Source: Pseudomonadota bacterium
GTDB lineage: Bacteria; Pseudomonadota; Gammaproteobacteria; Burkholderiales; Thiobacillaceae
Direction of reading: 5' to 3'
DNA: 64,000 nt
Assembly (NCBI GenBank): GCA_021811235.1
Contig: JAJZPG010000002.1
Span: forward strand, 124,001-188,000
Positions 14,292 to 33,896 of the stretch are shown piece after piece. The notes below the pieces were generated by a model, which did not search any database, was not told where the DNA came from, and saw only the letters and a program-made list of their open reading frames with translations. How positions within the stretch are numbered: position 1 is the stretch's first letter; each line of letters opens with the position of its first letter. Made by a program: the position numbers and the translations under genes.

Positions 14292-14300
14292 GACGGTCTC

Positions 14301-15161
14301 CTAGCGGAACACCACGGTCTTGTTGCCGTGGGCCAGTACCCGGTCTTCCAGGTGGTAGCGCAGGCCGCGCGCCAGCACTGTCTTCTCGATGTCCTTGCCG
14401 TAGCGCACCATGTCCTCGGGCGAATCCGAATGGTCGATGCGGATCACGTCCTGCTCGATGATCGGTCCCTGGTCGAGCGCCTCGGTGACGTAGTGGCAGG
14501 TCGCGCCGATCAGCTTGACGCCGCGCTCGTAGGCCTGGTGGTAGGGGCGCGCGCCGACGAAGCTGGGCAGGAAGCTGTGGTGGATGTTGACGATCCGCCC
14601 CGGGTAGGCGCGGCACAGCTCGGGGGAGAGGATCTGCATGTAGCGCGCGAGCACCATGGTGTCGCCGCGCACCGACTCGAACAGGCGCTGCACCTCGGCG
14701 TAGGCGGCGTTCTTGTTGTCCGGCGTCACCGGCACGTGGTGGAACGGTATGCCGTGCCACTCGACGAAGCCGCGGAAGGTCTCGTGGTTGGAGATCACGC
14801 AGGGAATCTCGATGTCGAGCTCCTTCGACTGCCAGCGCGCCAGCAGGTCGTACAGGCAATGCTCCTGCTTCGATACCAGGACCACCACCCGCTTCCTCAC
14901 CGCCGAATCGCTGATGCGCCAGTCCATGCCGTACTCACTGGCAATCGGGGCGAACTTCTCCTTCAGCGTGGCGAGATCGAAGGGCAGCGAGTCGGCCAGG
15001 ATTTCCTGGCGCATGAAAAAGCGCTGCGCCGGTTCGTCGGCGTGGTGGCTGGCCTCGACGATCCAGCCCTGGTGTTGTGCGATCAGCCCGCTCACGGCTG
15101 CGACGATGCCGACCCGGTCGGGGCAGGACAGCGTCAGGGTGTAGCGGCGGGCAGCGAGCAT
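14301..15161 (-). CDS. purU: Formyltetrahydrofolate deformylase
   Basis: PurU hydrolyses 10-formyl-THF to formate and free THF. The 286-residue protein has an N-terminal ACT domain (residues 4-80, TLSCPDRVGIVAAVSGLIAQ) and a C-terminal formyltransferase-fold domain with the catalytic region NIHHSFLPSFVGARPYHQA and the ensuing GATCHYVTEALDQGPIIEQD. As first gene of the NMG operon it would drain the C1-folate produced by the Mgd dehydrogenase. The start is the ATG at 15161; GTG immediately precedes it and no strong ribosome site is visible. Confidence 0.93.
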   Translation of the reverse strand: MLAARRYTLTLSCPDRVGIVAAVSGLIAQHQGWIVEASHHADEPAQRFFMRQEILADSLPFDLATLKEKFAPIASEYGMDWRISDSAVRKRVVVLVSKQEHCLYDLLARWQSKELDIEIPCVISNHETFRGFVEWHGIPFHHVPVTPDNKNAAYAEVQRLFESVRGDTMVLARYMQILSPELCRAYPGRIVNIHHSFLPSFVGARPYHQAYERGVKLIGATCHYVTEALDQGPIIEQDVIRIDHSDSPEDMVRYGKDIEKTVLARGLRYHLEDRVLAHGNKTVVFR

Positions 15162-15164
15162 CAC

Positions 15165-18962: not shown

Positions 18963-20756
18963 TCATTTATCCTGCGCAGCCAACCACGCCCGCCACCCCC
19001 CAAGCGCTGTGATGTCCTTCGCATCGGCCACCCCGATGCCTTCGCAGATGAACCCGTTCACCACCGATCCATCGGCCAGTTCCAGCTTGCCGATGCCGAG
19101 CGGCGCGGGGATGCCGGCGACGAAGGAGCCGAACTGGCTGGCGGGCATTTCCCAGACTTCGCAGGCGATCGATGCGCCGCCCGTTTCCACCTTGATGAGG
19201 CCGGGGCGCTTGCCGTCGGGCAGGGCATAGAAGCGGTATGTGGGCGCGGTCTGCGTCGCGCTCAGCAAACGCGCGTTGCGCTCGGTGAGCTGGTGATTGA
19301 GCGGCAGTCCGGAGAGGTGGGCGCCGACGACGGCGACCCGGACCTGGCCGTCCGGCAACAGGTTCAGTTTCCCGGCCGGCGGCAGCGCGTGATCGGTGGC
19401 ACCGAGCTTGCCGCCCAGCGTCTGCTGCATTCTGGAAGCCAGATGCAGCAGCGGGCCGTCCTGGTGCAGCGGCGCAATCAGCGTCACGCCGAACGGCAGG
19501 CCGTCGTCCTGGAACCCGGCCGGCACGGCGGTGGCGGCCAGATCGAGCAGGTTCATGAAGTTGGTGTAATAGCCGAGGTTGGCGTTGAGGCGGATGGGGT
19601 CGGCCTGCATTTCTTCAATGCGATAGATCGTGCCGGCGGTGGGGGTGAGCATCACGTCGATGTCGTTCCACACCGCATCGCACACGCGCTTGAACGCACG
19701 CAGCGTGTAGAGGTGGGCGAAGGTGTCGGCGGCGCTGATGTCGCGGCCGCCCGCGATGATTTCGCGCACCGGCGGAAAGACTTTCTCGGGCTGCGCGTCG
19801 AAGAAATCGCGGATGGCGAGATAGCGCTCGGCGACCCAGGGGCCGCCGTAGAGCAGGCGCGCGGTGTCGAGAAAGGGGGCGAGGTCGACTTCCACCGGCG
19901 TGCCGCCGAGTGATTTCAGCCTGGCCACTGCTTCGCCGAACAGTCGCTCCGCCTCGGCGTTGCCGAAGAACTCCAGGTCCTTCTGCATCGGCACGCCGAA
20001 GCGGAAGCCGGCCGCGCGGCCGAAGTCGAAACCGTGCGGCGCCAGCGGGCGCGAGTATTCGTCGGCGGCATCGAAGCCGGCGGCGACCGCCAGCACGCGC
20101 TCGGCGTCCTCGGCCGTCAACGCGAAGATCGACACCGCGTCGAGCGAGCGGCAGGCGGGCACCACGCCGCGGGTGGAGAGCGCGCCGCAGCTCGGCTTAT
20201 GGCCGACCAGGTTGTTGAACGCGGCAGGCACGCGCCCGGAGCCGGCGGTGTCGGTGCCGAGCGAGAAGCTCGCCAGGCCGAGCGCCACGGCGACGGCAGA
20301 GCCGGAGCTGGAGCCGCCGGAAATGAAGTTCGGGTCGAAGGCATTGCGGCACGCGCCGTAGGGCGAGCGGGTGCCGTTGAGGCCGGTGGCAAACTGGTCG
20401 AGGTTGGTCTTGCCGAGCGGGATCGCACCGGCGTCGATCAGGCGCTGCACCACGGTCGCGCTGCGTTCCGGCGTGTAGGCATACTCGGGGCAGGCGGCGG
20501 TGGTCGGCAGGCCGGCGAGGTCGATGTTGTCCTTGATGGCGAAGGGGATGCCGTAGAGCGGCAGGCTCGCGATGTCCCTGCCTTCGAGGCTTCTCGCGTG
20601 GGCACGCAGGGTGTCGGCATCGAGGCGGCTGATCCAGATGCGGTGGCTGTCATCGCCGGCCATGCGGGCAAGCAGGTCGTCCACCAGGGCGAGCGGCGTG
20701 AGTTCGCCGGACTGATAGCGCTGGCGCAGGCTGGCCATGTCGAGCGATGCGTTCAT
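18963..20756 (-). CDS. atzF: Allophanate hydrolase
   Basis: A 597-residue amidase-signature enzyme that splits allophanate to ammonia and CO2. The catalytic triad region is present: IPFAIKDNIDLAGLPTT (Lys), SGGSSSGSAVAVALG (cis-Ser), and LGTDTAGSGRVPA (nucleophile Ser). The C-terminal third (about 470-597, RVAVVGAHLSGLPLNHQLTE to the end) is the gamma-glutamylcyclotransferase-like domain typical of full-length AtzF. It is the last gene of the operon, ten bases after the carboxylase, and completes guanidine or urea breakdown to ammonium. Confidence 0.95.
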   Translation of the reverse strand: MNASLDMASLRQRYQSGELTPLALVDDLLARMAGDDSHRIWISRLDADTLRAHARSLEGRDIASLPLYGIPFAIKDNIDLAGLPTTAACPEYAYTPERSATVVQRLIDAGAIPLGKTNLDQFATGLNGTRSPYGACRNAFDPNFISGGSSSGSAVAVALGLASFSLGTDTAGSGRVPAAFNNLVGHKPSCGALSTRGVVPACRSLDAVSIFALTAEDAERVLAVAAGFDAADEYSRPLAPHGFDFGRAAGFRFGVPMQKDLEFFGNAEAERLFGEAVARLKSLGGTPVEVDLAPFLDTARLLYGGPWVAERYLAIRDFFDAQPEKVFPPVREIIAGGRDISAADTFAHLYTLRAFKRVCDAVWNDIDVMLTPTAGTIYRIEEMQADPIRLNANLGYYTNFMNLLDLAATAVPAGFQDDGLPFGVTLIAPLHQDGPLLHLASRMQQTLGGKLGATDHALPPAGKLNLLPDGQVRVAVVGAHLSGLPLNHQLTERNARLLSATQTAPTYRFYALPDGKRPGLIKVETGGASIACEVWEMPASQFGSFVAGIPAPLGIGKLELADGSVVNGFICEGIGVADAKDITALGGWRAWLAAQDK

Positions 20757-20766
20757 TTTCTATTCC

Positions 20767-23700
20767 TCACTCGCTCACCAACACCAGTAGATCCTGCCCC
20801 GCACTCACCTGCCCACCCTCGCGGCAGAACACCTTGTGGATGCGGCCGTCGCACGGCGCCATCACGGCGAATTCCATCTTCATCGATTCGACGATGACGA
20901 GGGTATCGCCCTGCTTCACTGCGGCGCCCTCCTCCACTTCCACCTTCCACACGTTGCCGGCCACGTGGCTGGCGATGGCGCGGCCGTTCTCCGGCAAGTC
21001 GAGTTCGCTGTCGGGTGCGGCTTCGGCCACCGTCATATCACTGGCGTACTCGGCCTGACCGCTCGCGCGCCAGCGCTCGCGCTCGGCGTCGAACGAAGCC
21101 TGCTGCTGCGTCTTGAAGGCGGCGATGGAATCGTTGTTGTCGGCGAGGAAGCGGTTGTACTCGCGCAGGCTGAAGGTGGTCTCTTCCACTTTCAATTGAT
21201 AGCGGCCGAGCGGGAAGTCCTCGCGGATTTTCAGCAGCCCTTCCTCGCTCACCGGGAAGAAGCGCACCTGGTCGAAGAAGCGCAGCAGCCACGGCTTGCC
21301 GTCGGTGAAGTCGGCGGTCTGCCGCCAGCGGTTCCACATCTGCAGGGTGCGGCCGACGAACTGGTAGCCGCCGGGGCCTTCCATGCCATACACGCACATA
21401 TAGGCGCCGCCGATGCCGACCGCGTTTTCCGGGGTCCAGGTGCGGGCGGGGTTGTACTTGGTGGTGACGAGGCGATGGCGCGGATCGACCGGGGTCGCCA
21501 CCGGCGCGCCAAGGTAGACGTCGCCCAGCCCCATCACCAGATAGCTGGCGTCGAAGACGATGCGCTTCACCTCTTCGATCGAGTCGAGGCCGTTGATGCG
21601 GCGGATGAACTCGATGTTGCTCGGGCACCAGGGCGCGTCCTTCCGCACCGACTGCATGTATTTCTCGATGGCCAGCTTGGTTGCGGCGTCGTCCCACGAC
21701 AGCGGAATGTGCACGATGCGGGTGGGCACCTGCATGTCCTCGATCGCGGGCAGCGCCTTTTCCGCGGCCAGCAGCAGGTCCATCAGTTTCGCCAGCGGCA
21801 GCACGCGCGAGTCGTAGTGCACCTGCAGCGAACGGATGCCGGGCGTGAGGTCGAGTATGCCCTGCACCGCCTTCGCCTGAAGGTGCGACATCAACGCGTG
21901 CACGCGGAAGCGCAGGTTGAGGTCGAGCACCAGCGGGCCGTATTCGATCAGCAGGTACTTGTCGCCGGCGCGGCGGTAGACGACGGCGACGGGGTTGTCG
22001 GTTTCGGGGGTGCGGTGGAGGACGGGTTCCGCGAGCGGCCCGTTGTCATTGATCAATTCAGGCGCAGCGAGGCCGGCGATGGCGGCGTCCTGCGCCGCTT
22101 CCATGCGCTCGGCCTGCGTCTGGCTCAAGCGCTTGAAGCGCACCGTGTCGCCCGGGCGCAGCTGGCCCATCTTCCACAGTTCGGCCTGCACGATGGTGGC
22201 CGGGCAGACGAAGCCGCCGAGGCTGGGGCCGTCCGGGCCCAGGATCACCGGCATGTCGCCGGTGAAGTCGACCGCGCCGATGGCGTAGGCGTTGTCGTGG
22301 ATGTTGGACGGATGCAGGCCGGCCTCGCCGCCGTCCTTGCGCGCCCATTCGGGGCGCGGGCCGATCAGGCGGACGCCGGTCCGGCTGGAGTTGTAGTGCA
22401 CTTCCCAGTCGGTGGCGAAGAACATCTCAATGTCGGCGTCGGTGAAGAAGTCCGGCGCGCCGTGCGGGCCATAGAGGACGCCGATTTCCCAGGCATGAGC
22501 ATAGGCCGGGACCAGCGCGGCGGGCAATGCGGTGCCGATGTTCGAGGCGTCCGCTGCCAGGATGTGCAGCACGTCGCCCACCCGCAGCGTGCGCCCGGCG
22601 TGGCCGCCGAACTGACCCAGCGTGAAGGTGGCCTTGCTGCCCAGATACTCGGGCACGTCGAAGCCGCCGCGCACCGCGAGGTAAGTGCGGCAGCCGGTGT
22701 CCTTGATCGCGCTGAGTTTCAGGATCGAACCGGCCTTCACCGCATGCGCCGTCCAGTTGGCAATCGCAACGCCGTCGAGCTCGGCGCCCATATCGGCGCC
22801 CGCGAGCGCGATCACGCTGTCGCAGTTGAAGCGCAAGGTGGGGCCGGCGACAGTCAGTTCGAGCGCAGCCGCGCCCTCCGCGTTGCCTGCAAGCTTGTTG
22901 GCGAACCGCAGGGCCAGCGCATCCATCGGCCCCGACGGCGGCACGCCGACGTCCCAGTAGCCGGTGCGGCCCGGCCAGTCCTGGATGCTCGACTGCACGC
23001 CGGGTTCGATGACGTCGATGGTCGCCGGGCGGTAGTGGAAGGCATTGAGGTAGCGCGTGGTCTGGCGGCCTTCGATGAACACCCCATCGCGCACGATCTG
23101 GCCGAGGTAGCCGAGGTTGGTCTCGATGCCGGCGACGCGGGTGTTGGCCAGCACCTGCTGCATGTTTTCCAGCGCTTCGGCGCGGTCTTTACCCTTGACG
23201 ATGAGCTTCGCCACCATCGGATCGTAGAACGGCGGCACGTCGCTGCCGCGCTCGACCCAGGTTTCGATGCGCGCATCCGCCGGGAACACGACTTCGGTCA
23301 GCACGCCGGCGGCGGGCTGGAAATCCTTGCCCGGGTCTTCGGCGTAGAGGCGCACCTGCATCGACGCGCCCCTGGATTCGGCCCTGAAGCCGGCGAGATC
23401 GAGCTCACCAGCGGCTTCCTTCACCATCCACTCGACCAGGTCGACGCCGGTGACTTCCTCGGTGACGCCGTGCTCGACCTGCAGGCGCGTATTCACTTCG
23501 AGGAAATAGAACTCGCCGCTCTGTGTGTCGTAGACGAACTCGACGGTGCCGGCGGAGCGGTAGCCGACCGCTTCGCCGAGGCGCACGGCGGTGGCGAGCA
23601 GGTTGTTGCGCTGCGTGTCGGTGAGGCCGGGCGCGGGGGTTTCCTCGATGACCTTCTGGTTGCGCCGCTGCACCGAACAGTCGCGCTCGCCCAGTGCGAC

Positions 23701-24360
23701 GACGTGGCCACGGCCGTCGCCGAAGATCTGCACCTCGATGTGGCGCGCGTGCTCGACGTATTTTTCGAGGAAGATACCGGCCTCCTTGAAGTTGGCGCGT
23801 GCCAGGCGCTCGACCGACTGGAAGGCTTCGACCAGTTCGTCGGCGCTCCAGATCAGGCGCATGCCGATGCCGCCACCGCCGGCAGTGCTCTTCAGCATCA
23901 CCGGGTAGCCGATGCGTGCGGCTTCGGCCTGGGCGTGGCCGGCATCACTCAATAGGCCGGAACCGGGCAGCAGCGGCACCTTATTGTGCTCGGCGAGATC
24001 GCGCGCGGTGTGCTTCAAGCCAAAGGCGCGCATCTGCGCAGGGCTCGGCCCGATGAAGGCGATGCCGGCCGCCGCGCAGTCCTCGGCGAAGCCGGGGTTC
24101 TCGGACAGGAAGCCGTAGCCGGGGTGGATGGCCTGGGCGCCGGTGGCTTTCGCCGCTTCGAGAATTTTTTCGGCGCGCAGGTAGCTCTGCGCCGCCGGCG
24201 CCGGACCGATCTCGACCGCTTCATCGGCGAGCCGCACGTGCAGGCTGTGGCGATCGGCCTCGGAATAGACGGCGACCGACTTCACCCCCATGGTGCGCAG
24301 GGTGCGGATGATGCGGCAGGCGATGGCGCCGCGGTTGGCAATCAGGACTTTCTCAAACAT
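20767..24360 (-). CDS. Urea/guanidine carboxylase, biotin-dependent
   Basis: A 1197-residue single-chain carboxylase. Order: biotin carboxylase (residues 1-450; MFEKVLIANRGAIACRIIRT, ATP-grasp KSTAGGGGIGMRL, EVNTRLQVEHGVTE); KipA-like carboxyltransferase domain (about 455-760, PGRTGYWDVGVPPSGPMDAL); KipI-like domain (about 800-1020, LVMGLGDVYLGAPVA, YNPARTWTPENAVGIGG); biotinyl domain (about 1125-1197) with VESMKMEF as the biotinylated Lys motif. The architecture is shared by urea carboxylases and the guanidine carboxylases of the same family. The guanidine-I riboswitch and the two DUF1989 genes upstream argue for guanidine as true substrate, giving carboxyguanidine from guanidine, bicarbonate and ATP. 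A decisive substrate residue I did not verify. Confidence 0.92.
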   Translation of the reverse strand: MFEKVLIANRGAIACRIIRTLRTMGVKSVAVYSEADRHSLHVRLADEAVEIGPAPAAQSYLRAEKILEAAKATGAQAIHPGYGFLSENPGFAEDCAAAGIAFIGPSPAQMRAFGLKHTARDLAEHNKVPLLPGSGLLSDAGHAQAEAARIGYPVMLKSTAGGGGIGMRLIWSADELVEAFQSVERLARANFKEAGIFLEKYVEHARHIEVQIFGDGRGHVVALGERDCSVQRRNQKVIEETPAPGLTDTQRNNLLATAVRLGEAVGYRSAGTVEFVYDTQSGEFYFLEVNTRLQVEHGVTEEVTGVDLVEWMVKEAAGELDLAGFRAESRGASMQVRLYAEDPGKDFQPAAGVLTEVVFPADARIETWVERGSDVPPFYDPMVAKLIVKGKDRAEALENMQQVLANTRVAGIETNLGYLGQIVRDGVFIEGRQTTRYLNAFHYRPATIDVIEPGVQSSIQDWPGRTGYWDVGVPPSGPMDALALRFANKLAGNAEGAAALELTVAGPTLRFNCDSVIALAGADMGAELDGVAIANWTAHAVKAGSILKLSAIKDTGCRTYLAVRGGFDVPEYLGSKATFTLGQFGGHAGRTLRVGDVLHILAADASNIGTALPAALVPAYAHAWEIGVLYGPHGAPDFFTDADIEMFFATDWEVHYNSSRTGVRLIGPRPEWARKDGGEAGLHPSNIHDNAYAIGAVDFTGDMPVILGPDGPSLGGFVCPATIVQAELWKMGQLRPGDTVRFKRLSQTQAERMEAAQDAAIAGLAAPELINDNGPLAEPVLHRTPETDNPVAVVYRRAGDKYLLIEYGPLVLDLNLRFRVHALMSHLQAKAVQGILDLTPGIRSLQVHYDSRVLPLAKLMDLLLAAEKALPAIEDMQVPTRIVHIPLSWDDAATKLAIEKYMQSVRKDAPWCPSNIEFIRRINGLDSIEEVKRIVFDASYLVMGLGDVYLGAPVATPVDPRHRLVTTKYNPARTWTPENAVGIGGAYMCVYGMEGPGGYQFVGRTLQMWNRWRQTADFTDGKPWLLRFFDQVRFFPVSEEGLLKIREDFPLGRYQLKVEETTFSLREYNRFLADNNDSIAAFKTQQQASFDAERERWRASGQAEYASDMTVAEAAPDSELDLPENGRAIASHVAGNVWKVEVEEGAAVKQGDTLVIVESMKMEFAVMAPCDGRIHKVFCREGGQVSAGQDLLVLVSE

Positions 24361-24426: not shown

Positions 24427-25086
24427 TTATTGGCTGGGTGCGTCCCAGATCAGGACCCGCACCGGCGTCGGGTTGTAGGCGTTGCACGGGTTGTTGAGCT
24501 GCGGACAGTTGGAGATCAGGCACAGCACGTCCATCTCGGCGCGCATCTCGACGTACTTGCCGGGCGCCGACACGCCGTCGGCGAAGGTCAGCCCACCCGC
24601 GGGGGTCACCGGCACGTTCATGAAGAAATTGATGTTGCTGGTGATGTCGCGCTTGGTCAGGCCGCCGTCATGGTGCGCCAGCGCATGCAGGAAGCTGTCG
24701 CGGCACGAATGCATCGGCCGCTTGTTCAGTGCATATCTGACGGTGTTGCTCTCGCACGAGCAGGCACCGCCGAGGGTGTCGTGGCGACCGCAGGTGTCGG
24801 CGGTGATCGTCAGCATGACCCGGCCTTCGGTCGACATCAGCCGGGTGCCGGCGGTGAGATACAAAGCACCCTGCGCGCGCACGGTGTCGGCGGCGCTGTA
24901 GCGCTCCTCGGGATCGCGCGCGTTGAAGAACAGGGTGTCGACCGCCTGGTTGCCTTCAAGGTCGAGGATGCGGAAGACCTGGCCTTTTTTGATCTCGTGG
25001 ATCCACGGATCGCCAGCGTTGACGACCGCATCGACGACAGCCTGCTTGGGATCGAAGGGACTTTCGACGAGGTTGAACGTGCTCAT
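24427..25086 (-). CDS. DUF1989 protein, probable carboxyguanidine deiminase subunit
   Basis: A 219-residue DUF1989 (urea carboxylase-associated) protein. Features: [49 protein letters not shown] with conserved Cys and His, the Cys cluster [12 protein letters not shown], and [16 protein letters not shown]. In guanidine operons the two DUF1989 proteins together form the deiminase (CgdAB) that turns carboxyguanidine into allophanate. I do not assign which subunit this is. The upstream paralogue is nine bases away; the carboxylase follows after a hairpin-bearing spacer. Confidence 0.85.
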
Positions 25087-25095
25087 GATCTCACC

Positions 25096-25833
25096 TCAAC
25101 GGTACAGGATTTCGGTTTGGTAGAAGCCGCGCTGGTTTTCCGCGCAGCTGTTGCGGCAGACGTCGTCCGCGCCCGGCGTGCCCGCCTTCCACGCGGTCAG
25201 CATGACGTCGCCCGGCGCATAGTCGGGACGCGGATCGAGTGGATGCGGCGCGGCGGACAGCACCACCAGAACGTTCATCTCGAAGCGTAGATCAAGGGTG
25301 GCGCCGGGGCGCGAATTCGTCTCGTCGAACTGTAGCCGGCCGGCCTCGTCTGCCGCCACCTTGCTGAAGAAGTTCACGTTCGGCACCACATCGCGCTTGC
25401 CCAGACCCCATTTGCCGAGCTCGACCAGCAGGCCGTCGCGGCCGTTTCGGTACATCGCGTTGCGGTGGGTCTGGTAGGTGGCCTCGCCGTATTTCGCCTT
25501 GACGATCTCGGCATTGCTCACGCCGCATACGGTGTCGTGCCAGCCGCAGCTGTCGCTGATCACCGAGCACAGCACGTGGCCCATGTCCGAATAGAGCGCG
25601 TGGCCATTGGTCAGGTGTGCGGTGTGCTGCGCCTTCAGCGTATCGGGCATGTTGTAGCGTTCGAGTTTTTCCTCGGCGTTGTAGAACAGCGCCGACACGT
25701 TGGCGCGGCCGGAAAGGTCGGTGAGCCTGAGCGCGTTGCCTCGACGCAGGATGCCCGACCAGTGGCAGCCGCCGGGCAGCGCTTCTTCCCACAGGAACAG
25801 TTCGGGGGGAATGGGGTTGAGGTTCTGTGCCAT
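25096..25833 (-). CDS. DUF1989 protein, probable carboxyguanidine deiminase subunit
   Basis: The second DUF1989 protein, 245 residues, paralogous to its downstream neighbour. Shared blocks: RRGNALRLTDLSGRANVSAL, MGHVLCSVISDSCGWHDTVC, and KRDVVPNVNFFSKVA. It has its own C-terminal Cys pair (DDVCRNSCAENQRGFY). Two unequal DUF1989 paralogues side by side next to a carboxylase is the pattern of the CgdA/CgdB heteromer. The start is the ATG at 25833; the gene follows the glutamine-synthetase-family gene by twelve bases. Confidence 0.85.
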   Translation of the reverse strand: MAQNLNPIPPELFLWEEALPGGCHWSGILRRGNALRLTDLSGRANVSALFYNAEEKLERYNMPDTLKAQHTAHLTNGHALYSDMGHVLCSVISDSCGWHDTVCGVSNAEIVKAKYGEATYQTHRNAMYRNGRDGLLVELGKWGLGKRDVVPNVNFFSKVAADEAGRLQFDETNSRPGATLDLRFEMNVLVVLSAAPHPLDPRPDYAPGDVMLTAWKAGTPGADDVCRNSCAENQRGFYQTEILYR

Positions 25834-25845
25834 ACGAATGCCTGC

Positions 25846-27222
25846 TCAGAAGAATTTGAGGTAGCGGTCCAGCTCCCACTGCGACACGTGGGTGTGATAC
25901 GCCTCCCACTCGTCGCGCTTGAACTTGACGAAGGTGTCGGCCATCAGCTCGCCGAAGACTTCCCGGGTCAACGGATCGGCTTCGAAGGCGTCGATCGCCT
26001 CTTCCAGCGAGCGCGGCAGGTGGCTGACGCCCATCGCCTGCAGTTCGGCCTCGGTGTGCTGGTACATGTTCTCGGCATGGGGTTTTCCTGGATCGAGCCC
26101 CTCGCGGATGCCTTCGAGGCCGGCGGCCAGCATCAGCGCGGCGGCCAGATAGGGGTTGCACGACATGTCGACCGCGCGGCATTCGACGCGGCCGCCGGCG
26201 AGCGGCACGCGCAGCATGTTGGTGCGGTTGTTGCTGCCGAAGGAGACGTGGATCGGCGCCCAGGTGAAGCCCGACATGTTGCCGCGCCGCACCAGGCGCT
26301 TGTAGCTGTTGACCGTGGGGGCGATGACGGCGGAGATCGCGTGCGCGTGCTTGAGCACGCCGGCGACGAACTGGTAGCCGAGCTTCGACAGCTTGAGCCC
26401 GTTGGCATCCGCCGGCGCATCGAACAGGTTCTCGCCGGTTTCCAGGCTCGCCATCGACATGTTGAAGTGGGCGCCGCTACCGGTGCGGTCGGCGAAGGGC
26501 TTGGCCATGAAGGTGGCGAAATAGCCGCGCTTCTTCGCCATCTCGCCAAGCATCAGGCGGAAGAAGGTGAAGCGGTCGGCCATGGTGAGACCGTCGGCGT
26601 ACTGGAAGTCGGTCTCGAACTGGCCGTTGGCGTCCTCGTGGTCGAAGGAATAGACGTCCCAGCCGAGGCCATCCATCGCCTGCACGATTTCGTCGAGCAT
26701 CGAATAGTTGTCGAGGAAGCCGCGCACGTCGTAGCAGGGCTTGGCCAGCGTGTCGCCCTCGCTGGTCGGGACGAGGCTGCCGTCCGGATTCTGCTTGAGG
26801 ACGAAGAACTCGGTTTCGATGCCGAGGTTGAAGCGCAGCCCCAGTTCGGCCGCAGCCGCGAGCTGCTTCTTCAGGATGCCGCGCGAGCAGGCCTCGAAGG
26901 GCTGGCCTTTCAGATAGAGGTCGCTGGCGTACCACACGACTTCCGGATTCCATGGCAGGACCGCGGCGGATGCGAGATCGGGACGCGCGGAAACTTCCTC
27001 GTCGTTGACTTCCTGCGGCACGCCGTCGAGCGCGGCGCCGGTGAAGAGCTCGGAGCCGCCGACCATCTGTTCGAAGTGGGACAGCGGCACGACCTTGCTC
27101 TTGGAGACGCCGTGCAGGTCGACAAAGCTGGCGAGCGCGTACTTCACGCCGGCACCTTCGAGTTGCGCCTTGGCGGCCAGCGTTTCGACCGCCTGGGTTT
27201 CGGATGGGGAATGACCGGTCAT
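25846..27222 (-). CDS. Glutamine-synthetase-family ligase in guanidine operon
   Basis: A 458-residue GlnT/type III-like member of the GS family. It has the beta-grasp (YALASFVDLHGVSKSKVVP), [50 protein letters not shown] and CNPYLAAALMLAAGLEG, so metal and ATP sites look intact. The ATG at 27222 has AAGGAG eight bases upstream. Family members outside ammonia assimilation join glutamate to amines (GmaS, PuuA and others). The known guanidine route does not need such a ligase, so the substrate here is open: a guanidine or methylamine derivative is a plausible inference. It is paralogous to the gmaS of the NMG operon. Confidence 0.85.
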   Translation of the reverse strand: MTGHSPSETQAVETLAAKAQLEGAGVKYALASFVDLHGVSKSKVVPLSHFEQMVGGSELFTGAALDGVPQEVNDEEVSARPDLASAAVLPWNPEVVWYASDLYLKGQPFEACSRGILKKQLAAAAELGLRFNLGIETEFFVLKQNPDGSLVPTSEGDTLAKPCYDVRGFLDNYSMLDEIVQAMDGLGWDVYSFDHEDANGQFETDFQYADGLTMADRFTFFRLMLGEMAKKRGYFATFMAKPFADRTGSGAHFNMSMASLETGENLFDAPADANGLKLSKLGYQFVAGVLKHAHAISAVIAPTVNSYKRLVRRGNMSGFTWAPIHVSFGSNNRTNMLRVPLAGGRVECRAVDMSCNPYLAAALMLAAGLEGIREGLDPGKPHAENMYQHTEAELQAMGVSHLPRSLEEAIDAFEADPLTREVFGELMADTFVKFKRDEWEAYHTHVSQWELDRYLKFF

Positions 27223-27233
27223 GCGGATGCTCC

Positions 27234-28010
27234 TTAAAACGGGGGTGGGGTGATGCCGGCACGTTCGAGGGGCGTGGCCTCGGTAAGCGCCTGGGTGAGT
27301 TGCTGCGCGAGTTCGTTCACGCAGAGATCCAGCAAATTCTGTCCGGCCTCGGCCTCGGCCCGGCTCGGCGTGCCGACGGTGCCGTGCACGCTTTCGTCGC
27401 TGACGCGGTAGGCAAAAAAACAGCCGGCCGAGCGATCGGGCTCGTCGACGACCCTGTCCATCCGCACCAGCTCGGGATGCAGGGCGAGCATCAGCGAGGT
27501 CTCGGCGCAGTTGGCGTGAAAGTTGGCGGCGTCCTCGTGATAGCGGCGATGCGCCTCGTCCGAGATGTCCCAGATCGAGCGCAGCGCAACGCGCATATTC
27601 GGAAACGTGTGGCGGACGTTCTCCAGCCCGCAGCGCAGCGGCGCCCAGTTGGTGACGTGGCCGTTCAGGATGAGCAGGCGGTCGAAGCCGGCACTGTTGA
27701 GCCACTCGGCGATTTCCAGCACCAGCTTCGACAAGGTTTCCGGGCGCAGCGAAATCGTGCCCGGCCATTTCGGCGAATGCCCGAGCGAGCAGCCGTAGGC
27801 GAGGCTCGGCAGCACCGGGATGCCGGTGCGCGCCGAAGCGCCCTTGGCCACCGCCTCGGCGGAAAGCGTGTCCACGCCCAATGGAAGATGAGGGCCGTGC
27901 TGCTCGGTGGCGCCCACCGGCAGGATCGCCATGGTGATCCCCCTGTCGCGTAGCGCGGCGACGTCTTCCCAGGTGAGGTTCTGCCACAGGACGGGCTGCT
28001 TTGCGTTCAT
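27234..28010 (-). CDS. Creatininase-family amidohydrolase
   Basis: A 258-residue member of the creatininase/mycofactocin-FapE-type metal hydrolase family. The metal-binding signature ATEQHGPHLPLGVDTLSAEA supplies Glu, His and Asp. Further motifs are SLGHSPKWPGTISLRPETL, LLILNGHVTNW and NFHANCAETSLMLALHPELV, with the second-metal Glu. Known family members open creatinine or similar cyclic or acyclic amides. It starts in an ATGA overlap with the ABC ATPase gene and stops twelve bases before the GS-family gene, so it is integral to the operon. A substrate related to guanidine (such as a methylated or cyclic guanidine) is inference only. Confidence 0.88.
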   Translation of the reverse strand: MNAKQPVLWQNLTWEDVAALRDRGITMAILPVGATEQHGPHLPLGVDTLSAEAVAKGASARTGIPVLPSLAYGCSLGHSPKWPGTISLRPETLSKLVLEIAEWLNSAGFDRLLILNGHVTNWAPLRCGLENVRHTFPNMRVALRSIWDISDEAHRRYHEDAANFHANCAETSLMLALHPELVRMDRVVDEPDRSAGCFFAYRVSDESVHGTVGTPSRAEAEAGQNLLDLCVNELAQQLTQALTEATPLERAGITPPPF

Positions 28011-28846
28011 ACAGTCGATCCCTGCAGGTTCAACTGATCCAGCATGCCCTGGTCGGTCTTCATGCCCGAGGTTTCGCGGATGCGCGCGAGGATCTCCTTT
28101 TTCAGGCTGAGGAATTCCGGGGTGTGCTTCATGTCCTGCTCGCGCTCGGCGGGGAGCGGCACCTCGTAGATGGTATCGATGCGACCGGGACGCGGTGCCA
28201 TCAATACAACCCGATCGGCAAGATAGATCGCCTCCTCGACGTCGTGGGTGACGAAGGCGAGCGTCGGCTTCTCCAGCCGGTGCACGTGCAGGATGAGGTC
28301 GTGCATGACCTCGCGCGTCTGCGCGTCGAGCGCACCGAAGGGTTCGTCCATCAAGAGGACCTGCGGCCGCCCCATCAGCGCGCGGGCGATGGCGACGCGC
28401 TGCTGCATGCCGCCCGACAGCTGGTTGGGCCAGGCATCGGCGGCGGCGGTCAGTCCCATCAGCGAAAGCAGGGCGTCGGCACGGCCGGAGGCGGCCTCGA
28501 CGTCGGCCGCGCTGAGGTTTTCGCGGCCGTGCCGGAGGCGGCGGCTGAACTTGATGTTCTCCATCACCGTGAGCCAGGGATAGAGGCTGTAGTGCTGGAA
28601 TACCATGGCGCGGTCGGCGCCGGGGCCCATGATGGCCTGGTCGTCGACCAGCACATCGCCGGCGGTATGGTATTCGAGGCCGCCGATGATGCGCAGCAGC
28701 GTCGACTTGCCGCAGCCGGAGGCGCCGACGAAGGTGACGAACTCGTTGTCGGCGATGTCGAGGCTGACGTCCTTGAGCGCCTCGACGCGGTGACGGCCTT
28801 CGCCAAACACCTTGCCGACGTGTTGGATGGAAATTTTCGTCGACAT
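28007..28846 (-). CDS. ABC transporter ATPase (nitrate/taurine type)
   Basis: A 279-residue ABC ATPase. Walker A GASGCGKSTLL (about residue 40), Q-loop FQHYSLYPWLTVMENI, signature LSGGMQQRVAIARAL, Walker B VLLMDEPFGALD and H-loop THDVEEA are all intact. The C-terminal extension (PLPAEREQDMKHTPEFLSLK) is common in the nitrate/sulfonate/taurine subfamily. With the permease and binding protein upstream it makes the importer found in urea/guanidine carboxylase operons. Confidence 0.95.
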   Translation of the reverse strand: MSTKISIQHVGKVFGEGRHRVEALKDVSLDIADNEFVTFVGASGCGKSTLLRIIGGLEYHTAGDVLVDDQAIMGPGADRAMVFQHYSLYPWLTVMENIKFSRRLRHGRENLSAADVEAASGRADALLSLMGLTAAADAWPNQLSGGMQQRVAIARALMGRPQVLLMDEPFGALDAQTREVMHDLILHVHRLEKPTLAFVTHDVEEAIYLADRVVLMAPRPGRIDTIYEVPLPAEREQDMKHTPEFLSLKKEILARIRETSGMKTDQGMLDQLNLQGSTV

Positions 28847-28848
28847 GG

Positions 28849-29670
28849 TCACGACCTCAGATGGAGCCAGGGGAAGGCCTTGCGATGCGCGAGGCGGAAC
28901 AGTTGGTCCATGACCAGGCCGATCAGGCCGATCAGGATGATGCCGACGAAGATCTTGTCGGTCTGCAGGAAGCGCTGCGCTTTCAGGATCGAATAGCCGA
29001 GGCCGGAGTTGGCGGCGACCAGTTCGGCCACCACCAGGTAGGTCCAGGCCCAGCCCATGGTGACGCGCAGGGTGTCGAGCAGCGCCGGCTTGGCAGCCTG
29101 AAAGATCACCAGGCTGATCGTCTCGCCTTTCTGCGCGCCCATGGTCTGCGCCGCTTCGATCTGCGCCAGCGGCACGCGTCGCACGTCCTCGGCCATCATC
29201 AGCACCATCTGGAAGAAGGTGCCGATGAAGATGATGGAAATCTTCGACGACTCCTCGATGCCGACCCACAGCATCACCAGCGGGATGAAGGCGACCGCCG
29301 GCATGTAGCGGATGAAGTCGGTGAGCGGCTCCAGCACCGCCTGCACCGGACGGAAGGTGCCGATCATCAATGCCAGGGGAAGCGCGATCACCGCCGAGAT
29401 GAGGAAGCCGGTGGTGACGCGGTAGATGCTGATGCCCATGTCGGACATCAGGTCGTCCTCGGTGAACCAGGTGACCAGCCGGTTGAACACGTCGACCGGG
29501 CCGGGCAGGAACACCTTGTCTACTGCCGCCCCGCTCGACACGCCCCACCACAGCCCCAGCGGCACCAGCAGCCCGAGCGCGGCGAACAGCCAGTACTGCC
29601 GGCGGGACAGCGGTCCGCGGATCGCCCACATGCCCGGGCGGCGCGGACGAGTGCTGGGTCTGGATTGCAT
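28849..29670 (-). CDS. ABC transporter permease (nitrate/taurine type)
   Basis: A 273-residue inner-membrane permease with about six membrane segments. The EAA loop is EAAQTMGAQKGETISLVIFQAA, of the family's canonical length. Start: ATG at 29670 is preferred over one at 29676 because GGGAG lies at proper distance only from the former. The stop is two bases from the ATPase start. Partner of the ATPase and binding protein. Confidence 0.93.
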   Translation of the reverse strand: MQSRPSTRPRRPGMWAIRGPLSRRQYWLFAALGLLVPLGLWWGVSSGAAVDKVFLPGPVDVFNRLVTWFTEDDLMSDMGISIYRVTTGFLISAVIALPLALMIGTFRPVQAVLEPLTDFIRYMPAVAFIPLVMLWVGIEESSKISIIFIGTFFQMVLMMAEDVRRVPLAQIEAAQTMGAQKGETISLVIFQAAKPALLDTLRVTMGWAWTYLVVAELVAANSGLGYSILKAQRFLQTDKIFVGIILIGLIGLVMDQLFRLAHRKAFPWLHLRS

Positions 29671-29689
29671 CGTCATTCTCCCTGTCGCT

Positions 29690-30676
29690 TTACTTGACGC
29701 CGGCGACTTCCTTGACCAGCGAAGCGTCCAGACCCTTGGCGAAATCGACCTTGCCTTCCATCAGCTTGTTGTCGAGCAGGAACTTGGAGATGGTCGGCGC
29801 CACGCCCAGGAGCGAGGTCTTGTCGGTCGCCGGACCGAAGGCCTGCAGGTTGGCCTTCTGGTCGAAGAACCGGGTGCCGGGCAGGAAGACGGCATACTCC
29901 TTGGCGCCCAGGCCAACCACCTTCGACATGATCTTCGCCGCCTCATCCGGATGGGTGCGCAGGAAGGCTTCGACGTCGTACCAGGCCTTGACCATGCCGA
30001 CGAAGTCCTTGCGCTTGGCCTTCAGCGATTTCTCCTGCACCACCAGCAGGTCGGGCACCAGGCCAGGCACATCCTTCGAGGTGAACAAGGGCTTGCCCTT
30101 GCCGCTGGTCTGGATGGTGTTCACCCAGGGGTTCCACACCACGGCGGCGTCGACGCGCCCGGCCATGAAGGCTGCGGCGGCATCGCCCGCGGAGAGGTTG
30201 ACCACCTGCACGTCCTTCAGCGTCATGCCGTTCTTGTTCAGCGCCATGGTGAGCAGGAAGTGCGACACGCTGAACTCTTCCAGCGCGATCTTCTTGCCTT
30301 TCAGATCCTTGAACGACTTGACCTTCGGCCCGACCATCAGCGCGTCGTTGCCGGCCGAGTTGTCGTTGACCAGGATGGCCTTCAGCGCGATGCCCTTGGC
30401 GAGCGGCGCCATGGTGTCGCTCCAGGTCTGCGAGTTGCCGTCGACCTGGCCGGCGGACAGCGCGCTGATCGAATCGGTGTAGTTGGCGAACCAGACCAGC
30501 TTGACGTCGGCACCGTGCTTCTTGAAAAAGCCCTTCTGCTCGGCGACATACCAGGCCACCCAGCCCGGCCAGTCGGACACGCCGATCTTGACCTGGGCAA
30601 GAGCTGCCGTGGGGTGGGCCAGCAAGGCAAAGCCGAGGCCGGCGACGAGGGTACGGGTGAGGCGCGCGATGTTCAT
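29690..30676 (-). CDS. ABC transporter substrate-binding protein, probable guanidine
   Basis: A 328-residue periplasmic binding protein of the nitrate/sulfonate/taurine (SsuA/NMT1) class. A signal peptide (MNIARLTRTLVAGLGFALLA to LAQ) is followed by KIGVSDWPGWVAWYVAEQKG and the hinge region GVAPTISKFLLDN. It is the first gene of the operon, with AGGAG seven bases from the ATG, 54 bases after the end of the guanidine-I riboswitch. This context suggests guanidine or a derivative as ligand. Confidence 0.92.
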   Translation of the reverse strand: MNIARLTRTLVAGLGFALLAHPTAALAQVKIGVSDWPGWVAWYVAEQKGFFKKHGADVKLVWFANYTDSISALSAGQVDGNSQTWSDTMAPLAKGIALKAILVNDNSAGNDALMVGPKVKSFKDLKGKKIALEEFSVSHFLLTMALNKNGMTLKDVQVVNLSAGDAAAAFMAGRVDAAVVWNPWVNTIQTSGKGKPLFTSKDVPGLVPDLLVVQEKSLKAKRKDFVGMVKAWYDVEAFLRTHPDEAAKIMSKVVGLGAKEYAVFLPGTRFFDQKANLQAFGPATDKTSLLGVAPTISKFLLDNKLMEGKVDFAKGLDASLVKEVAGVK

Positions 30677-30706
30677 GGGTGGCTCCTGGTTGGAAGGTGG
30701 AAATGC

Positions 30707-30746
30707 AAGCCGGGAAAGCGTCGCGCGATCGCGCTCTCCCGGGCTT
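30707..30746 (-). other. Probable riboswitch expression platform hairpin
   Basis: On the minus strand the 3' part of the aptamer (AGCCCGGGAGAGCG) can pair with CGCTTTCCCGGCT 13 bases further on, giving a long stem with one bulge. Formation would open the aptamer. It lies between the aptamer and the first ribosome site and is followed by only a weak T-run (CATTT), so termination may be partial or Rho-aided. Ligand-bound aptamer would block this stem and turn expression on. Confidence 0.55.
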
Positions 30747-30828
30747 TTATCCCTCCGTGGAGCCCCGCCACTGGCGGTGCCGGCAGCTCTCGGACCAGAC
30801 ATCTCTAGCGAGACCGGAACCCTAGCTG
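30731..30828 (-). ncRNA. Guanidine-I (ykkC class) riboswitch
   Basis: Reading the minus strand, the conserved elements come in the order of the guanidine-I consensus: CTAGGGTTCCGG (about 30825-30814), GGTCCGAGAG (30796-30787), an ACGG-containing linker, then GGGATAAAAGCCCGGGAGAG (30753-30734). Spacing and sequence match the ykkC aptamer, which binds guanidinium and turns expression on. It heads an operon of transport and carboxylase genes of the known guanidine catabolic type. Position relative to a sigma-54 start site near 30872 places it fully inside the leader. Confidence 0.96.
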
Positions 30829-30882
30829 CGCATTCGCGGTTATGCGGGCGACGAGCGCCGCTTTTCCCGTTGAGTCTGTATG

Positions 30883-30898
30883 AGCAACGGCTGTGCCA
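30883..30898 (-). promoter_or_regulatory. Sigma-54 promoter of the guanidine operon
   Basis: Minus-strand TGGCACAGCCGTTGCT has ideal -24 (TGGCAC) and -12 (TTGCT) boxes with GG-N10-GC spacing. The start site would lie near 30872, 44 bases before the riboswitch. A sequence at IHF-like distance (30917-30929) has several mismatches and is not claimed. Confidence 0.85.
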
Positions 30899-30983
30899 GC
30901 GCCACAAACTTCACATAAGCAACTGTATTTAAAAGAAATACATGCATGGAACTCAACACTGCACGGGATGACCTGTCGCGACG

Positions 30984-31031
30984 CGGTCCGTATTGGTGCA
31001 GACCGATCCCGACGTGCACCAAAGTGGCACA
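30984..31031. promoter_or_regulatory. Two NtrC-like enhancer sites for the guanidine operon
   Basis: TGCACCAAAGTGGCACA at 31015-31031 is close to the NtrC consensus TGCACY-N4-TGGTGCA. A second copy at 30984-31000 keeps the right half-site (TGGTGCA) but a degenerate left half. Centres are 31 bases apart, close to the spacing of the classic glnA enhancer pair, and lie about 120 and 150 bases upstream of the predicted start. Rest of 30899-31051: no gene seen. Confidence 0.7.
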
Positions 31032-31051
31032 ACAACGCACGCCCGGCGCAC

Positions 31052-31080
31052 AAAAAAAGGGGCGCCCTGCAGAGCGCCCC
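31052..31080 (-). terminator. Intrinsic terminator after amtB
   Basis: Minus strand: GGGGCGC/GCGCCCC stem with an eight-base loop, followed by seven T. It lies 24 bases after the amtB stop and ends the TorF-glnK-amtB operon. Confidence 0.92.
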
Positions 31081-31104
31081 ATACTTCCGTCGGAGAAAGA
31101 AGAA

Positions 31105-32601
31105 TTACATGGTGTAGGCCCGCTCGCCGTGGGAGGCGGTGTCCAGACCTTCGCGTTCCTGCTCTTCCGGCACGCGCAGACCCATGGTCAGGTCGACCAG
31201 CTTGAAGAGCACGAAGCTCACCACGCCCGACCACACGATCACGGTACCCACGCCCCACAGCTGGCTGATGATCTGGCCGGTGGCGTTGAACTCGGCCACT
31301 GCGCCGGCGGCGTAGTCGTACACGCCAGAGCCGCCGAGAGCCGGGTTGGCGACGATGCCGGTACCGATGGCACCGATGATGCCGCCGATGCCGTGCACGC
31401 CGAACACGTCGAGCGAGTCGTCATAACCCAGCGCACGCTTCAGACCGGTGACCCCCCAGAGGCAAGCCACGCCCGCCACTGCACCGAGGACGATGGCGCC
31501 CATGGGGCCGGCAAAACCGGCAGCCGGGGTGATCGCCACGAGGCCGGAGACAGCGCCCGAAGCAGCACCCAGCATGGAGGGCTTGCCGCGGATCATCCAC
31601 TCGGTGAACATCCAGGCGAGCGCAGCAGCGGCAGCGGCCAGCACCGTGTTCAGCAGGGCCAGCACCGTGGTGCCGTTGGCTTCGAGGTTGGAGCCGGCGT
31701 TGAAGCCGAACCAGCCGAACCACAGCAGACCGGCACCCACCATGGTGAAGGTCAGGTTATGCGGCGCCATCGCCTCCTTGCCGTAGCCGATGCGCTTGCC
31801 GATCACGTACGCACCCACCAGCGCTGCCATGGCCGCGTTGATGTGCACCACGGTGCCGCCGGCGAAGTCGAGCGCGCCCTTGGCAAACAGGAAGCCGGCC
31901 GGTGCGTCGAACGCGGACGGACCGCCCCAGAACCACACCATGTGGGCCATCGGCAGATAAGAGAAGGTGAACCACAGCGCGGAGAACACCAGCAGCGAGG
32001 AGAACTTGATGCGCTCCGCGAAGCCGCCGACGATCAGGGCGGTGGTAATCGCTGCGAAAGTCAGCTGGAACACCATGAACAGCATTTCGGGAATCACCAC
32101 GCCCTTGGAGAAGGTTTCCACCGTGACGCTGGTGTCGACTCCGGCCAGGAACATCTTGGAAAGACCGCCGATGAAACTGTTCATGCCGCCGCCGTCGGTG
32201 AAGGCCAGGCTGTAGCCGTAGATCACCCACAGGATGCCGATCAGGCAGAACACCGCGAACACCTGGGTAAGGACCGACAGCATGTTCTTGGAGCGCACCA
32301 GACCGCCGTAGAACAGGGCAAGGCCCGGGATCGTCATCAGGACCACCACCATGGTTGCGATCAGCATCCAGGTGACATCCCCTTTGTCGGGCACCGGGGC
32401 AGCCGCTTCTTCGGCCGGTGCGGCCGCTTCGGCAGCAGGCGCTACCTCGGCCGGGGCAGCTTCGGCAGGAGCAGCCGCTTCGGCCGCAGGCGCAACCTCG
32501 ACCACAACCGCTTCCGCAGCAGGGGCCGGATCTTCCGCCAGGACCAGGTTGGGAGACAGCAGGGCAAACATCAAGCCCAATGAAGCGAATAGTTTTTTCA
32601 T
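31105..32601 (-). CDS. amtB: Ammonium transporter with Ala/Pro/Glu-rich N-terminal linker
   Basis: A 498-residue Amt channel. A cleavable signal peptide (MKKLFASLGLMFALLSPNLVLA) is followed by a linker of about 50 residues of Ala, Pro, Glu and Val, then the eleven membrane helices. Visible residues: GALDFAGGTVVHINAAMAA (ammonium-site Asp and first pore His) and DVFGVHGIGGIIGAI (second pore His). Start at 32601, with GAGGAG seven bases away; a GTG further up is unlikely. It lies eleven bases after glnK, which will plug the channel when nitrogen is plentiful. Confidence 0.95.
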   Translation of the reverse strand: MKKLFASLGLMFALLSPNLVLAEDPAPAAEAVVVEVAPAAEAAAPAEAAPAEVAPAAEAAAPAEEAAAPVPDKGDVTWMLIATMVVVLMTIPGLALFYGGLVRSKNMLSVLTQVFAVFCLIGILWVIYGYSLAFTDGGGMNSFIGGLSKMFLAGVDTSVTVETFSKGVVIPEMLFMVFQLTFAAITTALIVGGFAERIKFSSLLVFSALWFTFSYLPMAHMVWFWGGPSAFDAPAGFLFAKGALDFAGGTVVHINAAMAALVGAYVIGKRIGYGKEAMAPHNLTFTMVGAGLLWFGWFGFNAGSNLEANGTTVLALLNTVLAAAAAALAWMFTEWMIRGKPSMLGAASGAVSGLVAITPAAGFAGPMGAIVLGAVAGVACLWGVTGLKRALGYDDSLDVFGVHGIGGIIGAIGTGIVANPALGGSGVYDYAAGAVAEFNATGQIISQLWGVGTVIVWSGVVSFVLFKLVDLTMGLRVPEEQEREGLDTASHGERAYTM

Positions 32602-32612
32602 GTTCACACTCC

Positions 32613-33805
<1,193 letters not shown>

Positions 33806-33850: not shown

Positions 33851-33896
33851 AGCATAAGCCGTGCCAGAATATTTTTTCATTCAAATCAATCAATTA
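33851..33896 (-). promoter_or_regulatory. IHF site and sigma-54 promoter of TorF-glnK-amtB
   Basis: Minus strand TGGCACGGCTTATGCT (33866-33851) is a -24/-12 promoter with GG-N10-GC; predicted start near 33841, leader about 36 bases. AATCAATCAATTA at 33884-33896 is a perfect IHF consensus (WATCAA-N4-TTR), centred about 25 bases before the -24 GG. DNA bending here would bring the upstream NtrC sites to the polymerase. Confidence 0.85.

Follow-up and report, generated by a model that had tools for sequence, protein, structure and literature searches.

The stretch of DNA studied here, referred to below as the window, comprises 64,000 nucleotides of contig JAJZPG010000002.1 (positions 124,001 to 188,000 of the forward strand; assembly GCA_021811235.1) from a bacterium of the Thiobacillaceae, Pseudomonadota. 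Its minus strand carries an operon whose predicted proteins are those of an importer and of the guanidine carboxylase pathway. The region in front of this operon probably controls it in two stages, with initiation by NtrC and sigma-54 RNA polymerase followed by a guanidine-I riboswitch leader that would act by antitermination. The elements of this region and their conservation were determined by computation, as were the leader complementarity seen across loci and the presence of NtrC and RpoN.

Aptamer and predicted sigma-54 promoter

Read along the minus strand, the region holds the end of an amtB-like gene, a hairpin, NtrC-like site 1, NtrC-like site 2, a sigma-54 element, a leader, the aptamer, a further hairpin and the importer start codon at 30676 (Table 1). 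RF00442 was the sole Rfam match above threshold when the 64 kb window was searched. The match is full length (model positions 1-107 of 107) and lies in cis before guanidine-related genes, namely those for the importer, UAAP1 and UAAP2, the carboxylase and the allophanate hydrolase. The matched segment is assigned as a Guanidine-I aptamer, for which guanidine binding and guanidine-dependent expression are predicted. An earlier note on this DNA, written from the letters alone, had described two NtrC-like sites 31 bases apart, a near-consensus -24/-12 promoter, a start near 30872 and a complete guanidine-I aptamer before the transporter gene. Its coordinates and the 31-base spacing are correct. 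The NtrC-like sites were recovered with 10/12 and 9/12 fixed bases and the promoter with 11/12, the start coincides with that predicted from the -24/-12 element, and the covariance-model search that the note had proposed was significant, at 87.8 bits against a gathering score of 63. The leader strand between start and aptamer is an addition to that picture.

The sigma-54 element, TGGCACAGCCGTTGCT, has an exact GG at -24 and an exact GC at -12 with ten bases between them and flanks near consensus, and the leader between the predicted start and the aptamer spans about 36 bases. Taken alone, a match of such quality is not very rare: among 20000 random 355-nt segments of the window, scanned on one strand, 108 contained an 11/12 match and 643 one of at least 10/12. 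A search of the 2.85 Mb genome gave 13 occurrences of the strict pattern TGGCAYRNNNNTTGCW, compared with 2 of the pattern read backward. Two of the 13 sites, TGGCACAGCCGTTGCT being one of them, stand in front of the two guanidine-I aptamers found in the genome, at distances of 62 and 63 nt. RpoN is encoded in the genome (TIGR02395, E 2.6e-140, over cut-off).

Guanidine-I matches were present in 20 of 117 genomes sampled from the family, 50 of 399 from the order, 29 of 369 from the class and 43 of 398 from the phylum. The promoter analysis covered 85 loci, namely every one of the 27 in the family listing plus 29 additional loci each from the order and class searches; sigma-54 matches were counted from -110 to -4 relative to the aptamer. 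Eight of these loci belong to one family (f16), the permease clade. Among the other 77, a site of at least 9/12 was found in 74 and one of at least 10/12 in 69. Control stretches of the same size gave a site in 2/76, 1/76 and 1/75 cases, the opposite strand in 1/77, and dinucleotide shuffles in 3.4 of 77 on average and in 9 at most. The non-permease loci without a site are L065, L066 and L078, of which L066 has one at -162. New loci from the phylum sample carried a site of at least 10/12 in 24 of 26 cases, the exceptions being L114 (8/12) and L121. Chance co-occurrence of sigma-54 site and aptamer was rejected in view of the conservation (74/77) and the whole-genome count (2/13).

The coupling is the rule across most of the sampled Pseudomonadota guanidine-assimilation loci. 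The earlier note had singled out the coupling to NtrC/sigma-54 as the notable part of this operon; it is indeed present, but it is not special to the operon. A breadth scan that took one genome per species and looked for a sigma-54 element together with an aptamer core returned at least 119 stretches, a set pre-selected for the sigma-54 site that shows breadth and not frequency. The 80 listed among these at least 119 stretches include ones from Raoultella terrigena, Erwinia rhapontici, Pectobacterium, Pantoea, Enterobacter, Pseudomonas, Psychrobacter, Herbaspirillum and Cupriavidus.

It is highly improbable that the operon is read mainly from another promoter, either of the sigma-70 type or by readthrough from amtB, with the sigma-54 site in a minor role. 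The amtB-like gene does lie upstream on the same strand, and the simple sigma-70 scan was limited to consensus sites. However, amtB is closed by a terminator-like hairpin with a T-run, that scan found no sigma-70-like site in 30600-31200, and the sigma-54 site, unlike the bases flanking it, is conserved.

No sigma-54 site was found in any of the 8 permease-clade loci (L029, L039, L041, L045, L049, L055, L056 and L083), which precede a separate cluster of permease-like genes ('APC-type' by reading of the sequence). A missing RpoN was rejected as the cause, since all 8 genomes have rpoN. Among thiamine pyrophosphate (TPP) riboswitches of the family, examined as a control at 30 loci of 36 matches with positions taken from match starts, 1/30 had a site at 9/12 and 0/30 at 10/12. 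Guanidine-II riboswitches, with 17 loci in the class sample (one of them, L296, with a short upstream stretch), had a site in 0/6 cases before small exporter-like genes, 1/9 before carboxylase genes and 1/2 before desaturase-like genes, the exporter and desaturase labels being assigned by eye. A general link between riboswitches and sigma-54 is rejected by the TPP (1/30) and Guanidine-II controls. Small as these controls are, the link therefore appears to be with guanidine assimilation and not with riboswitches or guanidine sensing generally.

NtrC-like sites and published ntrC-mutant data

The NtrC-like sites are centred near -151 and -120 relative to the predicted start. The NtrC box published in PMC8743547, as given in the available text of that report, is TGCACCAnnnTGGTGCA. 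In five aligned loci of the genus, the right half of site 1 and the left half of site 2 are conserved. They appear as the blocks TT(G/A)GTGCA and, 14 bases further along in the window, GCACCA, which are facing halves of the two boxes, and they are followed by the conserved sigma-54 element and then the conserved leader.

Paired sites were counted in de-duplicated sets at a spacing of exactly 31 bp and a summed score of at least 18. Such pairs occurred in 12/23 family loci (other spacings, mean 0.23 and maximum 2; none in 100 shuffle rounds), in 12/68 loci of the wider searches (other spacings, mean 0.74 and maximum 3; shuffle mean 0.03) and in 6/67 named loci (other spacings, mean 0.6 and maximum 4; shuffle mean 0.04). 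Spacings of 13 and 18 bp were raised too, that of 13 bp exceeding 31 bp in the named set; this excess is read as self-overlap of the NtrC palindrome, and the final comparison was restricted to spacings of 20 or more. Single sites of at least 10/12 were present in 11/23, 25/68 and 32/67 loci, compared with shuffle means of 0.45, 1.27 and 1.2. NtrC itself is encoded in the genome (TIGR01818, 702 bits against a cut-off of 558.6), and the neighbouring glnK-like gene likewise speaks for nitrogen control. Elsewhere in the same genome, an 11/12 NtrC box precedes a nirB gene (TIGR02374, 513 bits for the tested stretch, below the cut-off of 578), and a 31-bp NtrC-like pair precedes a gene with a weak substrate-binding-protein match.

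Published RNA sequencing of an ntrC mutant of Burkholderia cenocepacia H111, assayed one hour after a shift to 0.3 mM ammonium, bears on this reading (PMC5491218). Zero reads were reported in the mutant for I35_7283 ('urea carboxylase-related ABC transporter, periplasmic protein') and I35_7285 ('urea carboxylase-related aminomethyltransferase'), and I35_7286 ('urea carboxylase') changed by log2 -6.0. In another B. cenocepacia strain, the matching genes are divergent; a guanidine-I match of 76.6 bits precedes the substrate-binding-protein gene and a second one of 76.7 bits precedes UAAP1, UAAP2 and the carboxylase, both aptamers having an 11/12 sigma-54 site 49 or 54 bases upstream. Judged by gene content and neighbouring locus numbers, the H111 operon appears to correspond to these loci. 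Together with the conservation and the whole-genome counts, the mutant data from this apparently matching operon support the NtrC/sigma-54 reading of the earlier note. On a B. cenocepacia replicon (L273:3550-4238), two divergent guanidine-I aptamers with their own sigma-54 sites share one intergenic region, and close divergent aptamer pairs were seen in further genomes of the order and class searches.

The sigma-54 promoter might be real and yet be driven by another enhancer-binding protein, the NtrC-like palindromes being incidental or serving a relative of NtrC. This is unlikely, although three points weigh against NtrC: several other proteins of the genome with an enhancer-binding domain match the NtrC model below cut-off, site 2 is good in one half only, and the paired form, strong within the family, is patchy beyond it, where single sites are commoner. 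On the other hand, the boxes fit the published NtrC box (PMC8743547, available text), the pairing at one spacing stands far above shuffles in the family, a box of 11/12 recurs before nirB, and the reads of the B. cenocepacia operon are lost in the ntrC mutant.

The same mutant study touches on the claim of the earlier note that reading of the operon needs both nitrogen shortage and guanidine. Both elements are present, but a strict need for the two inputs together, an AND gate, goes further than the evidence does. In B. cenocepacia the genes were scored while the cells were starved of nitrogen, and neither 'riboswitch' nor 'guanidine' occurs in the main text of the report (PMC5491218); expression under these conditions argues against a strict gate, and in this respect against the two-stage reading. 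The RNA step in B. cenocepacia is therefore probably leaky or fed by internal guanidine. The available text of two nitrogen-limitation transcriptome reports does not deal with guanidine or urea carboxylase genes, and these reports are neutral to the reading (PMC7801951; PMC5748707).

Leader strand and candidate antiterminator

In the window, the leader segment GGGAAAAGCGGCG faces CGACGCTTTCCC, and the leader can pair with the 3' arm (30723-30710) of the hairpin that follows the aptamer. The leader is conserved among related loci; at distant loci its sequence differs, and its complementarity to the hairpin's 3' arm is often retained. It is probably an antiterminator strand that comes into play while the aptamer is held by guanidine. 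When nitrogen is limiting, NtrC in its phosphorylated form would bind the sites near -151 and -120 and, by looping, activate sigma-54 RNA polymerase at the -24/-12 element, with transcription starting near 30872. The nascent leader would then fold the guanidine-I aptamer. Without guanidine, the 3' end of the aptamer and 30723-30710 would form the hairpin, and expression would be stopped or blocked. With guanidine, the aptamer would be stabilised and the 5' arm of the hairpin tied up, and the freed 3' arm would pair with the first transcript bases (30868-30852), allowing the importer and catabolic genes to be read. NtrC binding, the start site, the ligand response and the antitermination step are what we infer for this organism.

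The complementarity was scored as the best ungapped helix at de-duplicated loci, compared with dinucleotide-shuffled leaders. The first set was drawn from the 74 sigma-54 loci minus L020, L034 and L053, in which the aptamer end was missed, and minus 5 leaders shorter than 20 nt, which left 66 and, after de-duplication, 41; the second was drawn from 80 named loci minus L219, and these 79 were reduced to 42 by de-duplication within the set and against the first. A p value of at most 0.05 was obtained at 14/41 loci in the first set (about 2 expected) and 18/42 in the second, and the mean for a locus's own pair exceeded that for cross-locus pairs in both (22.9 versus 18.6 and 24.0 versus 18.5, respectively). 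Helices scoring at least 24 were found at 39 of 83 loci. Relative to the predicted start, all but one of them (38/39) begin at -1 to +14 and 32 at +1 to +8, a position that also supports the sigma-54 start. TTTT occurs within 14 bases after the 3' arm at 33/83 loci, compared with 3/83 in the control stretch. When the consensus aptamer pairs were enforced (26/28), the best fold, at -67.2 kcal/mol, contained a leader helix that brackets the aptamer.

Seven loci (L061, L071, L075, L076, L118, L120 and L123) have no separate leader strand because the sigma-54 site lies just 20-27 bases upstream of the aptamer, which puts the predicted start at the aptamer's first bases.

Several results weigh against the proposed antitermination. 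The post-aptamer hairpin of the window lacks a clear T-run and is unlisted by the terminator scan. More than half of the loci (27/41 and 24/42) miss p 0.05, and the window's own locus gave 0.06. The unconstrained fold holds the competing hairpin and, at -90.0 kcal/mol, lies far below the enforced-aptamer fold; leaving the 5' arm of the hairpin unpaired did not bring up the leader helix. An initial duplexfold comparison with cross-locus pairs was unconvincing (66 loci, mean z -0.83, 12 below -2); it was confounded by the hairpin 5' arm and by related loci, and was replaced by the ungapped-helix test. The leader also folds on itself. Apart from the T-run and the energy gap, these results favour an alternative in which the two controls are independent, the promoter serving nitrogen and the riboswitch using its own hairpin, with the leader complementarity a GC-rich by-product without a role. 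Such independence is a possible, if less than probable, account. It is opposed by the excess of own over cross-locus pairs in two sets despite strands that vary between lineages, and by the 32 of 39 strong helices that begin at +1 to +8 of the predicted transcript.

If the leader is indeed an antiterminator strand, a wider reading can be entertained, namely that the guanidine-I riboswitch and the NtrC/sigma-54 promoter of Pseudomonadota assimilation operons are one evolved unit. The sigma-54 start would fix the 5' end of the transcript, the first 10-15 bases would be the antiterminator strand, and the unit would form a two-input gate sensing nitrogen at initiation and guanidine at elongation, leaving exporters free of nitrogen control. 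Because of the energy gap between -90.0 and -67.2 kcal/mol, this reading is put at even chances.

Related systems and operon genes

In the nitrate-assimilation operons typified by Klebsiella nasF / NasR, the promoter is under general Ntr control and leader termination responds to a specific inducer. The window operon would resemble them in joining these two kinds of control, but in nasF a protein reads the leader, whereas here a guanidine aptamer would do so, with the transcript's own 5' end as candidate antiterminator. Sinn et al. are said to have described guanidine as a nitrogen source in 2021. The UAAP family presumably corresponds to COG3665.

The guanidine-I riboswitch of guanidine carboxylase operons has been reported for Raoultella terrigena, Erwinia rhapontici and Klebsiella michiganensis (PMC12186494). 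The window operon is like these in that a guanidine-I aptamer precedes the genes for the importer and the deiminase of the carboxylase pathway; it adds the promoter stage and the leader strand, and has the carboxylase and allophanate hydrolase in the same gene row. The main text of that report contains neither 'NtrC' nor 'sigma'; the sigma-54 element was found here in the R. terrigena and E. rhapontici records too. The NtrC regulon of B. cenocepacia H111 likewise includes NtrC-dependent importer genes of the urea-carboxylase type, UAAP-type genes and carboxylase genes, but an RNA stage is not considered in the main text of the study, and the guanidine-I match rests on another strain (PMC5491218). 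Genome-wide sigma-54 promoter predictions cover COG3665 genes in a report whose main text lacks 'guanidine' and has 'riboswitch' once, in a reference (PMC12316311). Each part is known, and both the NtrC dependence of one such operon and the sigma-54 prediction for COG3665 are already published, according to the main texts of these reports (PMC5491218; PMC12316311). No statement of a coupling of sigma-54/NtrC to guanidine riboswitches was found among the open-licence papers that the searches listed, subscription papers lying outside them.

If the two-stage reading is true, guanidine use would fall within the general nitrogen-starvation response across a wide range of Pseudomonadota, and the region would be a natural switch that takes two inputs in the compact space of 300 bp, its enhancer logic residing in DNA and its ligand logic in RNA. 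The data bear on whether guanidine is food or poison, since the sampled assimilation loci have the sigma-54 element and exporter loci lack it (0/6). They also suggest that much of the regulation may escape tests of these riboswitches carried out in ammonium-rich medium.

Table 1. Features of the guanidine-assimilation control region, its operon and the adjacent genes (window coordinates)
Feature	Position	Strand	Basis or remark
glnK-like P-II gene (context)	32613..32951	-	NF007946, 183.4 bits, cut-off 181
amtB-like ammonium transporter gene (upstream context)	31105..32616	-	Open reading frame; identity read from translation only
Terminator-like hairpin with T-run, after amtB	31080-31059	-	Terminator scan
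NtrC-like site 1, TGTGCCACTTTGGTGCA	31031-31015	-	10/12 fixed bases of TGCACC-N5-GGTGCA
NtrC-like site 2, TGCACCAATACGGACCG	31000-30984	-	9/12 fixed bases, 31 bp from site 1
Sigma-54 -24/-12 element, TGGCACAGCCGTTGCT	30898-30883	-	11/12 fixed bases of TGGCACG-N4-TTGCW
Predicted transcription start	30872/30871	-	Inferred from -24/-12 element
Leader strand, candidate antiterminator	30868-30852	-	Can pair with hairpin 3' arm; p 0.06 at the locus alone
Guanidine-I riboswitch aptamer	30836-30734	-	RF00442, 87.8 bits, E 2.3e-14
Post-aptamer hairpin, candidate expression platform	30742-30710	-	Folds; 5' arm overlaps aptamer 3' end
ABC importer substrate-binding protein	29690..30676	-	TIGR01728, 204.5 bits, cut-off 163.5
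ABC importer permease	28849..29676	-	Best match below curated cut-off
ABC importer ATPase (tested stretch; start codon provisional)	28007..28801	-	Best match below curated cut-off
Creatininase-family hydrolase	27234..28010	-	PF02633, 230.3 bits; TIGR04448 below cut-off
Type III glutamine synthetase family protein	25846..27219	-	TIGR03105, 583.9 bits, cut-off 469.6
UAAP1	25096..25833	-	TIGR03425, 364.2 bits, over cut-off
UAAP2	24427..25086	-	TIGR03424, 348.6 bits, over cut-off
Urea/guanidine carboxylase	20767..24360	-	TIGR02712, 1928.5 bits, over cut-off
Allophanate hydrolase	18963..20756	-	TIGR02713, 812.8 bits, over cut-off

Among the operon products, UAAP1 and UAAP2 are taken by us to be the carboxyguanidine deiminase subunits. 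An aspartate is said to mark guanidine-type carboxylases (PMC12186494, available text). The genes for the creatininase-family hydrolase and the type III glutamine synthetase lie between the importer and UAAP1 (25846-28010). Further down the same strand (13050-15164, minus) lie genes for a FAD-dependent oxidoreductase (PF01266) and a formyl transferase family protein (PF00551). Taken with the creatininase-family gene of the guanidine operon, this pair is, as we see it, reminiscent of sarcosine breakdown.

The second guanidine-I aptamer of the genome lies about 5.4 kb before the window start (L086:10526-15046), scores 74.9 bits and has an 11/12 sigma-54 site. Its gene row encodes a substrate-binding protein (31% identity to that of the window), a fatty acid desaturase family protein (PF00487) and an EamA transporter, together with proteins that by eye are cysteine hydrolase-like and metallo-beta-lactamase-fold-like. 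Desaturase-like genes similar to the one in this row follow Guanidine-II in L294 and L299. Within the window, a separate sigma-54-like element, TGGCACGGCTTATGCT, at 33866 and an NtrC-like site, CGCACCACGAAAGTGCG, stand upstream of a Gcw_chp gene (PF09694; 33032-33980, minus strand), which itself lies upstream of glnK-amtB.
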